Assembly (NCBI RefSeq): GCF_030814995.1
Contig: NZ_JAUSVX010000013.1
Location: 62,001 to 126,000 of the forward strand
Length of the DNA stretch: 64,000 nucleotides
From: Labrys wisconsinensis
Lineage (GTDB): Bacteria > Pseudomonadota > Alphaproteobacteria > Rhizobiales > Labraceae
Reading direction: 5' to 3'
Both the position numbers and the translations under genes were made by a program. The notes under the pieces are model-generated. The model was not told the origin of the DNA, searched no databases, and saw nothing but the letters and a program-made list of their open reading frames with translations. Below are positions 49,404 to 52,629 of this stretch, piece after piece (the stretch's first letter is position 1; every line of letters begins with the position of its first letter).

Positions 49404-50357
49404 GTGCGGCTTCATATCTCCACGGACGACGTGCCGGAGCGGGAACGCTTCGACAATTGGGACGCGATGCTGGATGGCACGCTCGGCATGCATGCGCGGC
49501 CGTTGGCGGATTCGCGGGAGCCTTTCCAAGCCAATCTGTCGGTGAGTTCCACCGGGCCGCTGTTCAGCCTCACCATGGAGGCGGACGGGCATTGCATCGT
49601 TCGCGACACGGCCACCGTCGCCCAACGACACCTGAACGCCTATTGGGTCTATCGCGAAGTCGGCGCGGGCGCGCGGATCACGCATGCCGGCGATGAGGTG
49701 GTTACGACCACCGGCAACCTCATCATTGCCGACGCCGATGTGCCGTGCGAGATACGCCCGATGGGCCGCTATGGGCACTCGGTGCTGCTGGTGCCGAAGC
49801 CCGCTCTCGATCCGTATCTGCGGGCGTCGGGACGGCCGGTGCTGGCGTTGCTGTCCGGTCTCAATGGGGTGGAGGCGCTTGCTTCGGGTTATCTCGACGC
49901 CCTGGCGCGCAATTGGGACGGGATTGGCGCGGAAAGCATGGGGATGGTCGCCGACACGCTGTGCCGGCTGATCGGCGTGGCCTGCGGCGCCGCGGCGGCG
50001 AATCACCCCGATGCGGTACGGGCCGGCCGGCTGGCCGAAGCCAAGCGATTGATCGATCGTTCCCTCACCGTCCCCGATCTCTCGGCCACGTGGATCGCGA
50101 CCTCGCTGGGGATTTCGGTCCGCATGCTGCACCTGCTGTTCGAGCCGACCGGTAGCAGTTTCGCCCGCTACGTCCTCCGGCGTCGATTGGAGGAATGCCG
50201 GACGGCATTGCTCGCCGATCCCACTCGCCCGGTGATCGACATCGCGTTCGCCTGGGGGTTCGGCAGCCTGTCCAGCTTCTATCGCGCCTTCCAGAGGGCG
50301 TTTGACATGGCGCCGAGCGACCTGCGGGAGGCATCGCGTAACGCGCGCAGCGCGTGA
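49404..50357 (+). CDS. AraC-family transcriptional regulator
   Basis: A 317-residue regulator. The N-terminal half is the AraC-binding-like cupin domain (RERFDNWDAMLDGTLGMHAR, HLNAYWVYREVGAGAR); the C-terminal half has two HTH units (LSATWIATSLGISVRMLHLLFEPTGSSFARYVLRRRLEECR and DIAFAWGFGSLSSFYRAFQRAFDMAPSDLR). GTG 49404 has GAGGAG upstream. It is 140 bases before the NAL-repeat peptide gene on the same strand and may regulate it, though these domains usually govern catabolic genes. Confidence 0.92.
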   Translation: MRLHISTDDVPERERFDNWDAMLDGTLGMHARPLADSREPFQANLSVSSTGPLFSLTMEADGHCIVRDTATVAQRHLNAYWVYREVGAGARITHAGDEVVTTTGNLIIADADVPCEIRPMGRYGHSVLLVPKPALDPYLRASGRPVLALLSGLNGVEALASGYLDALARNWDGIGAESMGMVADTLCRLIGVACGAAAANHPDAVRAGRLAEAKRLIDRSLTVPDLSATWIATSLGISVRMLHLLFEPTGSSFARYVLRRRLEECRTALLADPTRPVIDIAFAWGFGSLSSFYRAFQRAFDMAPSDLREASRNARSA

Positions 50358-50497: not shown

Positions 50498-50746
50498 ATG
50501 TCGTTACTCAGATCGCTCACGGTCGCCGGCACGGTCCTGGCGCTCGGTGTCGCCTCGCCCGCGCATGCCACATTGGCGCTCAACGCGCTCTCCATCAACG
50601 CGCTTTCCATCAATGCGCTCTCCATCAACGCGCTCACCTCGAATGCGCTGACGACCGATCCCCGCCTCGCCAGCACGCCCGCGATCGCGGATCTGAATGG
50701 CGTGGTGGTGGAGGGGGTTACGCTACCGCGGCAGAATAATCGCTGA
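50498..50746 (+). CDS. exported small protein with tandem NALSI-type pentapeptides
   Basis: An 82-residue protein. Residues 1-24 are a signal peptide (MSLLRSLTVAGTVLALGVASPAHA). The mature part opens with five tandem pentapeptides, NALSI, NALSI, NALSI, NALTS, NALTT (residues 29-53), then a short polar tail DLNGVVVEGVTLPRQNNR. No enzymatic motif is present. The repeat does not obey the classical A(D/N)LxX pentapeptide rule, since Leu is at the third, not second, place after Asn. GGAAGG precedes ATG 50498. The ADYC-domain gene starts two bases after its stop, so the two are made together. I do not know its function; an exported ligand, precursor or partner of the ADYC protein is an inference. 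Confidence 0.8.
   Translation: MSLLRSLTVAGTVLALGVASPAHATLALNALSINALSINALSINALTSNALTTDPRLASTPAIADLNGVVVEGVTLPRQNNR
50582..50656 (+). repeat. five tandem 15-bp units encoding NALSI repeats
   Basis: Units begin AACGCGCTCTCCATC at 50582 and repeat every 15 bases to 50656. Third-codon changes (AAC/AAT, CTC/CTT/CTG) show that the protein repeat has been kept while the DNA drifted, which argues for selection on the peptide. Confidence 0.9.
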
Positions 50747-50748
50747 CC

Positions 50749-51555
50749 ATGACAAGCAGGCTGGGCGCAGCCGTAGTCGGCGGATTGCTCTTGCTCGTCC
50801 TACCGGCCCTGGCGCACGCCGCGGCTCCAGGGCCGCGGGTGGCCGTGGAGGGCACGGCGTTTCGCGTCCAACTGCCGGACGGCAGCGTATTGCCGCAGGA
50901 CCAATTGGTCGGCGTGGTTCTGACATTGGGAGATGGCAGCGGAGTTCAGCGGCGCATCCGTATCGACGCGGTCGAGCATGACACCCGCGACAAGCTGGGC
51001 GAAGTCATGCTCTACACGCTGTCCGAAGCCGATCCGGTGAGCAAACAGTGGCGCAACGCGTGCGATCCCGACCCGGACGGGCGGCGGCTGGGCTTTCCAC
51101 TCTCGGGCGCGTTCACGCCGGACGGGCGCTATATCGCGGCGCCCGGCCGCATCCTGATCACCTGCACCGGCGGCGCGGAGGGAAAATGCATCCGCTTCGG
51201 CTACAAGCCATGGCGCACCACCCCGGAGGGCGAGGCGCTGCGACCCTACTACCAAACCTGCGTGCGGCTCGTGCGCGCGGACTATGGTGGAGACGGGGTT
51301 GGCCACACGCGCAACGGGACGCCCATCGATCTGTTCGATCGCATCGGCATCCAACGCGATGAAGTTGCCCCGGGGATGACCCTGGAGGCGGCGTTCGACC
51401 CGGACGGGGCCGTGTGCGTGGCCCATCCGCGGCTGCCCGGCGGGATCTCGCTCGACGCCCTGGGGCGGCAATACCCGCGCCTGGCCGGCCATCTCGATGC
51501 GGACTGCAGCGAGCATGTGCCGGCGCTGTTGTACGTCCGCTCCTTCGGTCGCTAG
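50749..51555 (+). CDS. exported ADYC-domain protein
   Basis: A 268-residue protein with a signal peptide (MTSRLGAAVVGGLLLLVLPALAHA). The mature part starts GPRVAVEGTAFRVQLPDG and contains six Cys (NACDPD, LITCTGG, GKCIRFGYKPW, QTCVRL, AVCVAHP, DADCSEH). This is the ADYC domain, but the name-giving motif reads VRADYGGDG here, with Gly in place of Cys. HTRNGTPIDLFDRIGI follows as in the family. The function of ADYC domains is unknown to me; six Cys suggest a disulfide-stabilised periplasmic or secreted fold. It is translationally coupled to the NAL-repeat peptide gene. Confidence 0.8.
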   Translation: MTSRLGAAVVGGLLLLVLPALAHAAAPGPRVAVEGTAFRVQLPDGSVLPQDQLVGVVLTLGDGSGVQRRIRIDAVEHDTRDKLGEVMLYTLSEADPVSKQWRNACDPDPDGRRLGFPLSGAFTPDGRYIAAPGRILITCTGGAEGKCIRFGYKPWRTTPEGEALRPYYQTCVRLVRADYGGDGVGHTRNGTPIDLFDRIGIQRDEVAPGMTLEAAFDPDGAVCVAHPRLPGGISLDALGRQYPRLAGHLDADCSEHVPALLYVRSFGR

Positions 51556-51917: not shown

Positions 51918-52226
51918 ATGCAACGGGCGATGATGATTCTGGTCATTTTGCTGGCAGGCACCGCTGCCGTGCGCGCCGACCAGGTCGTGAATGACGTTTA
52001 CCGAGATCTCATTAGGCCACATGGGCGCCCGCGCAGTGCTGCGGTCTCACAGGCGGCGCTCGATTTTTGCTATGGTCAGACCGGCGACATTCGAGGCCTT
52101 GCCGATACCGCGGCATTCAAGCAGTGCATGCTCAGCCGCGGGTATCGATGGCAAAGGACGCAGGTCAAGGGGAGACCCGCTCCCGAAAATGGCGCGGACT
52201 GGTGCATAACGCATGATACGTGTTAG
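51918..52226 (+). CDS. small exported Cys-containing hypothetical protein
   Basis: A 102-residue protein: a signal peptide (MQRAMMILVILLAGTAAVRA) and a mature part with four Cys, in LDFCYGQTGD, FKQCMLSRGYRW and WCITHDTC at the very end. The 'xxCMxxRGYRW' pattern is common in small rhizobial secreted proteins of unknown function. The paired Cys suggest two disulfides. The start ATG 51918 is chosen for the signal peptide. No partner is evident; a transposase-like gene follows convergently. Confidence 0.65.
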   Translation: MQRAMMILVILLAGTAAVRADQVVNDVYRDLIRPHGRPRSAAVSQAALDFCYGQTGDIRGLADTAAFKQCMLSRGYRWQRTQVKGRPAPENGADWCITHDTC

Positions 52227-52239
52227 GGCGCATTGACAT

Positions 52240-52629
52240 TCATGGTTTGGGGCAGGACGCGAGCGATTTTTCAAGGTCGACCCGTTGCTGGCCGATGATC
52301 CGTTCCAACTCGGCAATCCGCGCTGCTGCTTGCGCGATCGCGTTGTCCGACAGCAAAGCTGCCTTGTCCGGCGGGTCGTCTCCAACCGTTTCCTCGACAG
52401 CTTCTGTCGTCAGCGCCTGGGGCACCCCGCCCGTTTGCCCCGGCTTGCGCCCGGGCCGCTTGCCAAATCCGGCAAGACCCTCGGCACGCCACGCCGCATG
52501 CCAGCGATAGAGCAGCTGCCGCGCGACGCCCAACTCCCTCGCCAACGGCGCCACCTTGCGCCCGGCCTCCATCTGCGCGACCGCCGCCTTGAAGGTTGCC
52601 GAGAACACACGCTCTGATTGCTTCGACAT
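52240..52629 (-). CDS. transposase-like helix-turn-helix protein (orphan)
   Basis: A 129-residue protein: FSATFKAAVAQMEAGRKVAPLARELGVARQLLYRWHAAWRAEG is the HTH of IS3/IS66-type OrfA proteins, followed by a basic linker and a coiled coil (AARIAELERIIGQQRVDLEKSL). No OrfB/integrase part or terminal inverted repeats are visible on either side. It is either a remnant of an insertion sequence or a co-opted DNA-binding protein. Confidence 0.75.
   Translation of the reverse strand: MSKQSERVFSATFKAAVAQMEAGRKVAPLARELGVARQLLYRWHAAWRAEGLAGFGKRPGRKPGQTGGVPQALTTEAVEETVGDDPPDKAALLSDNAIAQAAARIAELERIIGQQRVDLEKSLASCPKP

Follow-up and report, generated by a model that had tools for sequence, protein, structure and literature searches.

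A repeat peptide that recurs beside ADYC-domain genes: a candidate two-protein exported system in Labrys wisconsinensis and other bacteria

The subject of this analysis is a pair of adjoining plus-strand genes in a 64,000-nucleotide (nt) stretch of the Labrys wisconsinensis genome (contig NZ_JAUSVX010000013.1, positions 62,001 to 126,000; hereafter the window), one encoding a short repeat peptide and the other a protein with an ADYC domain (PF20032). The peptide is encoded by an open reading frame (ORF) of 82 amino acids with an export-type start (50498..50746, + strand), and similar ORFs adjoin ADYC genes in other genomes. A signal peptide (50498..50569, +), recognised by eye from its charged start, hydrophobic core and A-H-A sequence, would be cleaved between that A-H-A and the following T. 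It is followed by five N-A-L-x-x pentapeptides (50582..50656, +) in the order NALSI NALSI NALSI NALTS NALTT, which agree with the family unit N-[G/A/S]-hydrophobic-[S/T..]-hydrophobic; five Asn in register appeared in 103 of 200,000 shuffles of the mature peptide. The peptide ends in a conserved C-terminal tail of 21 residues, AIADLNGVVVEGVTLPRQNNR (50681..50743, +); the three nearest relatives (L009-L011) have similar tails, and the corresponding stretch forms a strand in a fusion model from another locus (L046). The peptide has no match in Pfam at an expect value (E) up to 1, and a single sub-threshold match in NCBIfam (E 0.02, 14.5 bits against a cut-off of 100).

The second gene (50749..51555, +) begins after a two-base spacer (TGA-cc-ATG) and encodes an exported ADYC-domain protein of 268 amino acids that matches PF20032 over model positions 2-175 of 176 (160.8 bits against a cut-off of 27; E 4.9e-47). 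In this respect it is an ordinary, full member of the family, and the source genome holds one match to it and one to PF20032. The name-giving motif reads ADYG (residues 177-180; 51277..51288, +) within R-A-D-Y-G at residues 176-180. Gly180 thus replaces the motif Cys of other members, and Tyr242 (51472..51474, +) occupies the column of the presumed disulfide partner of that Cys. The Pfam match mentions no partner peptide. Export of both proteins was judged by eye from their N-termini rather than with a signal-peptide predictor. A sequence-only reading of the window had described two exported-type ORFs two bases apart, the first made up of a signal peptide, five NALSI-type pentapeptides and a tail, and the second an ADYC-domain protein reading ADYG, and in all these points the locus is as described. 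It had also pointed to synonymous differences among the repeats as a sign of selection; these are real, as the three NALSI units vary only between AAC and AAT and between CTC and CTT, and taken alone they are thin evidence.

Recurrence of a repeat peptide beside ADYC genes in other genomes was the prediction on which the pair could have failed, and it held. Loci were gathered by ADYC sequence alone, ignoring the peptide, from the window, four plasmid records, two further genomes and the best 80 among 185 relatives detected in genome contigs, giving 86 non-redundant loci (L025 lies on the same contig as L007 and was dropped from the tree and the counts). These loci are not independent of one another, eight being from Mesorhizobium and eight from Rhizobium or Neorhizobium. 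A peptide was sought with a loose rule that asked for a same-strand ORF with a hydrophobic N-terminus and three or more Asn in register every five residues, single misses being tolerated, no more than 2.7 kilobases (kb) upstream or 1.2 kb downstream of the ADYC gene. A same-strand asparagine-repeat ORF was present in 77 of the 86 loci: the loose rule yielded 77 peptides in 73 loci, and inspection added two loci with repeats for which the script found no in-frame signal peptide (L023, L079), one with a period of six (L071) and one with mixed spacing (L080). Among the remainder, two have only a tail of the peptide type (L030, L072), three start at a contig end and are untestable (L007, L029, L060), and in four no peptide was found.

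Controls indicate that these ORFs are not a by-product of base composition. With the loose rule, the opposite strand gave hits in 5 of 86 loci, of which two are a peptide gene read in reverse. Far upstream on the ADYC strand, at 2.7-6 kb, 2 of 59 loci gave a hit, one of them from another such peptide. When four consecutive Asn were required instead (the strict rule), the ADYC strand gave a hit in 67 of 85 loci and the opposite strand in none. The possibility of chance repeat ORFs in GC-rich DNA is ruled out by these opposite-strand and far-upstream controls. Three Microvirga loci (L051, L057, L073) gave extra plus-strand strict-rule hits by chance within HI0933-like oxidoreductase genes, one of which was identified by Pfam and the others by likeness; these were not counted as peptides, and the true peptide is also present at these loci.

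The pair spans Proteobacteria (three classes), Cyanobacteria, Myxococcota and Fibrobacterota, with a tail only in Methylomirabilota, so that the predicted recurrence held across several phyla. On the maximum-likelihood tree of ADYC proteins the order changes twice from peptide-ADYC to ADYC-peptide, at least once on well-supported branches, which implies that the two genes were rearranged and yet stayed neighbours. The 82-residue frame, whose lack of conservation in close relatives would have counted against the pair, is itself conserved in the nearest three; the tails of L009-L011 read LNGVAVEGVVLP, LNGVAVVGITLP and LNGVAIEAVALP, against LNGVVVEGVTLP in the window.

Purifying selection provides a second line of evidence. 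In 20 close pairs of loci, the ratio of nonsynonymous to synonymous change (omega, by the Nei-Gojobori method, NG86) for the peptide lay between 0.06 and 0.44 in 19 pairs and was 0.99 in one pair with few changes (L084/L088), while omega for ADYC in close pairs was 0.13-0.29. The mostly low values for the peptide therefore mark it as a maintained protein. The sequence-only reading had further taken the two genes to be translationally coupled. In the window this is consistent with a Shine-Dalgarno-like GGAAGG that precedes the peptide start, none preceding the ADYC start, by a simple motif test. As a general trait it does not stand: the gap between ADYC and its nearest peptide is 10 nt or less, or an overlap, in 19 of 73 loci, and 110 nt or less in 58. 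Within the 19 tight pairs, by the same motif test, such a site precedes 18 of the peptides and 6 of the ADYC genes, an asymmetry that favours coupling in tight pairs, the window included.

The two genes also tend to be present or absent together. PF20032 was found in 3 of 385 genomes of the class, and a profile built from 53 peptides gave its three best genomes in the same set (E 1e-17 to 3e-13) as precisely these three, with a dividing line at E 1e-10 that was set post hoc. The profile includes the peptides of two of the three genomes (the window and L008), leaving one genome, G126, as the sole independent success. Its peptide ends about 250 bases before the end of contig C128 and its ADYC gene starts about 100 bases into contig C60, an arrangement that fits adjacency across an assembly gap without proving it. 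At E 1e-3 the profile matches 16 of the 385 genomes, 13 of them without PF20032; the loci in these weaker genomes (E 4e-9 to 6e-4) resemble other repetitive ORFs and have no ADYC gene. Nearest to orphan peptides among them are L100 and L102, which have an export-like start and period-five asparagine repeats without the tail of the family. The pair is patchy, because PF20032 was absent from the four other genomes of the window's genus that were searched, and it was likely gained by transfer. As a separate observation, an ORF on the minus strand about 700 bases downstream of the pair (52240-52629) reads by eye as a transposase first frame, a possible route of gain. A search of viral contigs for ADYC gave no lead.

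Across the family, the consensus unit of the peptide is N-[G/A/S]-hydrophobic-[S/T]-hydrophobic (613 units, with L004 and L005 left out of the count), or in narrower terms N-G/A-L/I/V-S/T-L, and the number of repeats ranges from 3 to 27. The repeats are near-uniform in L026, L036 and L042 and differ among themselves in many other peptides. A loose tail signature, a hydrophobic residue, any residue and then L or M, occurs within the last 30 residues of 65 of 77 peptides, a count given without a chance rate. Several variants were observed. The exported-looking peptide of L071 (1015-1684), upstream of its ADYC gene, has 27 Asn at period six (NGLSMx type) and the tail ISISLPARR. The Mesorhizobium loci L012-L019 carry a long extension after the tail, often of repeated DPNxR-like units, so that the tail is not always the C-terminus. 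The repeat peptide of L021 (580-969) contains a stretch, DTDKDGKISADEL, that resembles a calcium-binding EF-hand loop, and it is presumably the one peptide among the 53 scanned that matches EF-hand models. Extra peptides are present in L039, L054 and L081, and the control scan found a further one in L050, 2.7-6 kb upstream of ADYC, with the same type of signal sequence and the tail FALDGIALPASVR, so this locus holds more such peptides than ADYC genes.

The sequence-only reading treated the ADYG of the window as a lost motif Cys. Gly180 does stand at the motif site, whereas lone loss or decay of the motif does not describe the family. Among 85 scorable ADYC sequences the motif residue is Cys in 50, Gly in 30 and Ala in 5, and when it is compared with the column of Tyr242, both are Cys in 50, neither in 35 and none is mixed (one row is gapped; Fisher p 1e-24, with relatedness ignored). 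One of the two patterns used to find loci required C or G at the motif site, so the residue frequencies may be biased and the joint table is not. Over the tree there are 9 changes in the state of this pair of sites, of which well-supported branches account for at least 5. Those branches yield 5 independent pairs, all in agreement (sign test p 0.0625, a number of pairs that cannot reach 0.05), and with all branches there are 9 pairs, whose agreement follows from the lack of mixed rows. The window's own clade is divided, both Cys being present in L009 and L010 and absent from the window and L011. Motif decay was accordingly rejected as an explanation of ADYG, the two Cys coming and going together. 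From this covariation, positions 180 and 242 very probably form a dispensable disulfide, and the Gly/Tyr state of the window probably represents that disulfide lost or gained. Since 35 of 85 members are without the motif Cys, always together with its partner, this residue does not define PF20032. The core cysteines C105, C139, C147 and C171 are present in 86, 86, 86 and 85 rows, that is in every row with a residue there, the window included.

An AlphaFold2 model of the window ADYC protein from 70 sequences has a predicted local distance difference test score (pLDDT) of 93.0 and a predicted template modelling (TM) score of 0.87; the structure alignment, A6, comprises 70 of the 86 proteins, with L003, L006 and 14 others, mostly near-copies, left out. 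Foldseek found no match to the model at E 1e-3 in the Protein Data Bank (PDB; best E 0.27, with query TM-scores of at most 0.19 among the 50 of 593 matches listed) or among the viral predictions of BFVD, and a profile search of PDB sequences with ADYC gave one match only, which is not significant (E 1.1). The model and these comparisons suggest that ADYC is likely a new fold. In L046 the peptide, its TAG stop, three codons and ADYC share one frame, so that reading TAG as Gln gives a fusion, in which a natural pair of neighbours was folded as a single chain. In the resulting model the conserved tail FVLEAIE (58-64) forms a strand flanked by two poorly predicted stretches, with a mean pLDDT of 57 in block 51-60 and 78 in block 61-70, and the first ADYC strand spans 7 residues where that of the window model spans 5, although these are different proteins and the comparison is loose. 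A strand at the tail would imply some partner strand, which with moderate confidence we take to belong to ADYC. The contact predicted in this way lies at the conserved tail, not at the repeat, where the sequence-only reading had looked for an interface.

No third gene was universal among the neighbours examined, which numbered 47 upstream and 42 downstream and fell into 67 and 51 families, the first 25 of each being listed. Regulators flank the pair clade by clade. An AraC-family regulator (49404..50357, +) ends about 140 bases upstream of the window peptide, and homologues precede the pair in L010 and L011 as well; perhaps this regulator controls the pair. LuxR-type regulators occur at six rhizobial loci, and an extracytoplasmic function (ECF) sigma factor at five (L031, L043, L049, L059, L068), with a Ser/Thr kinase within 1 kb downstream in four. 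A response regulator lies no more than 310 nt downstream in seven (L008, L029, L055, L058, L076, L082, L085), six of which have a divergent PAS-rich hybrid histidine kinase upstream. Together these four kinds, to which the count was limited, cover 21 of 86 loci. Seven cyanobacterial ADYC members and L083 begin with a lipobox (our reading of 12 regular-expression hits in 87), so ADYC can be held at a membrane even as the peptide retains an ordinary signal peptide. A membrane protein resembling fatty-acid hydroxylases is encoded after a repeat peptide in five loci, matching PF04116 in L050 (4583-5974), L053 (1575-2615), L054 (4216-5232) and L075 (2806-3819) and recognised by tblastn likeness in L039 (4021-5100 and 8202-8945). 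The peptides may thus have further partners, of which the hydroxylase-like protein is a possible second. In L052 (4651-5094) and L069 (5500-5967) a small exported-looking protein lies between peptide and ADYC, which by eye has a C-terminal Phe and resembles an outer-membrane barrel. Downstream of ADYC in the window is a short ORF of 102 amino acids with an export-like start (51918-52223), for which tblastn found nothing at E 1e-10 in other ADYC loci, and Pfam and NCBIfam gave nothing at E up to 1. An Rfam search and a scan for promoters and terminators gave no lead.

The observed basis for interpretation thus comprises export-type N-termini, recurrent adjacency, matching presence and absence in the sampled genomes, purifying selection and paired cysteines. 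Adjacency, co-occurrence and selection support the earlier proposal of a two-part secreted system, and it is strongly implied, at the level of sequence, that the pair works as one system outside the cytoplasm. A chance neighbourhood of two unrelated exported genes is scarcely credible, being contradicted by recurrence across phyla, by order changes with adjacency retained, by co-occurrence and by the strand controls, and no observation was found in its favour. For what the system might be, we propose a two-protein exported assembly in which the tail is docked on ADYC and the repeats are displayed, a reading to which we give about an even chance. Both proteins would cross the inner membrane by their own signal peptides, and the short conserved tail of the peptide would add as a beta strand to the ADYC domain, which would act as a cap, a holder or, where a lipobox is present, a membrane anchor. 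The N-x-x-x-x repeats would extend as a displayed arm, probably a ladder-like, self-associating stack, with a purpose at the cell surface. A more ambitious version is plausible, though we hold it more loosely: a phylum-spanning system of asparagine-ladder peptides, strand-added by their tails to a new-fold, Cys-rich ADYC domain as a surface filament or display arm, with expression wired to whichever regulator the lineage has available.

Several observations weigh against this assembly. Four loci have ADYC and no repeat peptide that was found (L037, L047, L064, L070), and in four others over 1 kb separates ADYC from the nearest peptide (L050, L052, L053, L075), with other genes intervening in at least three. 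Two repeat peptides of L039 are followed by a fatty-acid-hydroxylase-like gene rather than by ADYC. The fusion is one chain, and the link itself may have forced the tail strand; only 4 of the 48 rows behind it were fused, and its repeats folded without confidence (pLDDT 27-41). Among 75 peptides 181 of 813 Asn are out of register, and these together with the six-residue period of L071 and the mixed one of L080 argue against one strict five-residue coil.

Possible alternatives rank in the order of modifying enzyme, signal, and bacteriocin with immunity. The foremost, which we regard as unlikely, is that the peptide is a substrate of ADYC, which would be a secreted enzyme or maturation factor that recognises the tail and cleaves, cross-links or modifies the repeats outside the cytoplasm. 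ADYC is better conserved than the peptide and has invariant or near-invariant polar residues (K146, R149, Y179, D194, D197, E213, R228, S265), three peptides of L039 lie within range of the one ADYC found there, and the hydroxylase-like membrane gene follows peptides in five loci; however, no catalytic signature known to us was recognised in ADYC, and the structure and sequence searches of solved structures described above returned nothing significant.

It is improbable that the peptide is instead a signal precursor, like a tandem-repeat pheromone, sensed by the neighbouring regulators. Regulators of four unrelated kinds do flank the pair and some peptides have near-uniform repeats, but those four kinds account for 21 of 86 loci and may simply control expression, and in many other peptides the repeats vary, in which they do not resemble multi-copy pheromones. 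Still less probable is an antibacterial peptide with ADYC as its exported immunity protein. Bacteriocin and immunity pairs resemble the present one in that a small exported peptide adjoins an exported partner, here periplasmic or lipid-anchored, in places beside regulators, and the extra peptides of L039, L054 and L081 would suit such a role. Immunity proteins usually diverge fast, whereas ADYC is conserved across phyla and has 12 residues that are invariant across the 70 rows of A6; the peptide is under purifying selection in 19 of 20 pairs and has a plain signal peptide, with no double-glycine leader by eye. The neighbour families listed included no conspicuous export or processing genes, and PADLOC gave no match.

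Beyond the place of the larger protein in PF20032, comparison with known systems gave no membership. Pentapeptide repeat proteins (PF00805/PF13599) have the unit order A-(D/N)-L-x-x and fold as a right-handed quadrilateral helix. The likeness lies in the five-residue period with Asn and Leu at fixed places, but the unit here is N-[GA]-hydrophobic-[ST]-hydrophobic and the peptide, which is exported and short, has a conserved tail. Of the 53 scanned peptides no more than 3 and 4 match PF00805 and PF13599 at E up to 1e-3, the window peptide matching neither at E up to 1, and membership was rejected on this ground and on unit order. A known anti-phage defence system was rejected, as neither protein matched any PADLOC family at E up to 0.1. 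Curli-type functional amyloids, formed by CsgA with accessory proteins, are likewise exported proteins of imperfect short Asn/Gly-rich repeats beside a partner; the repeat length differs, and no curli genes were among the neighbour families listed. A literature search, whose coverage left out subscription papers and preprints, found neither the pair nor the peptide family. The pair fits no known kind by these membership tests, and its function may still prove familiar.

No function was found for ADYC, and neither Pfam nor NCBIfam has a family for the peptide; their recurrent pairing makes two orphans one testable object, with the tail as the candidate point of contact. The family also provides natural variants whose repeats number from 3 to 27, in hosts with strain numbers that include Rhizobium, Azospirillum, Tahibacter, Reyranella and Nostoc. 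If the repeats form a ladder or fibre, the pair would represent a new kind of minimal surface structure, and if ADYC modifies the repeats, it would represent a new extracellular modification.
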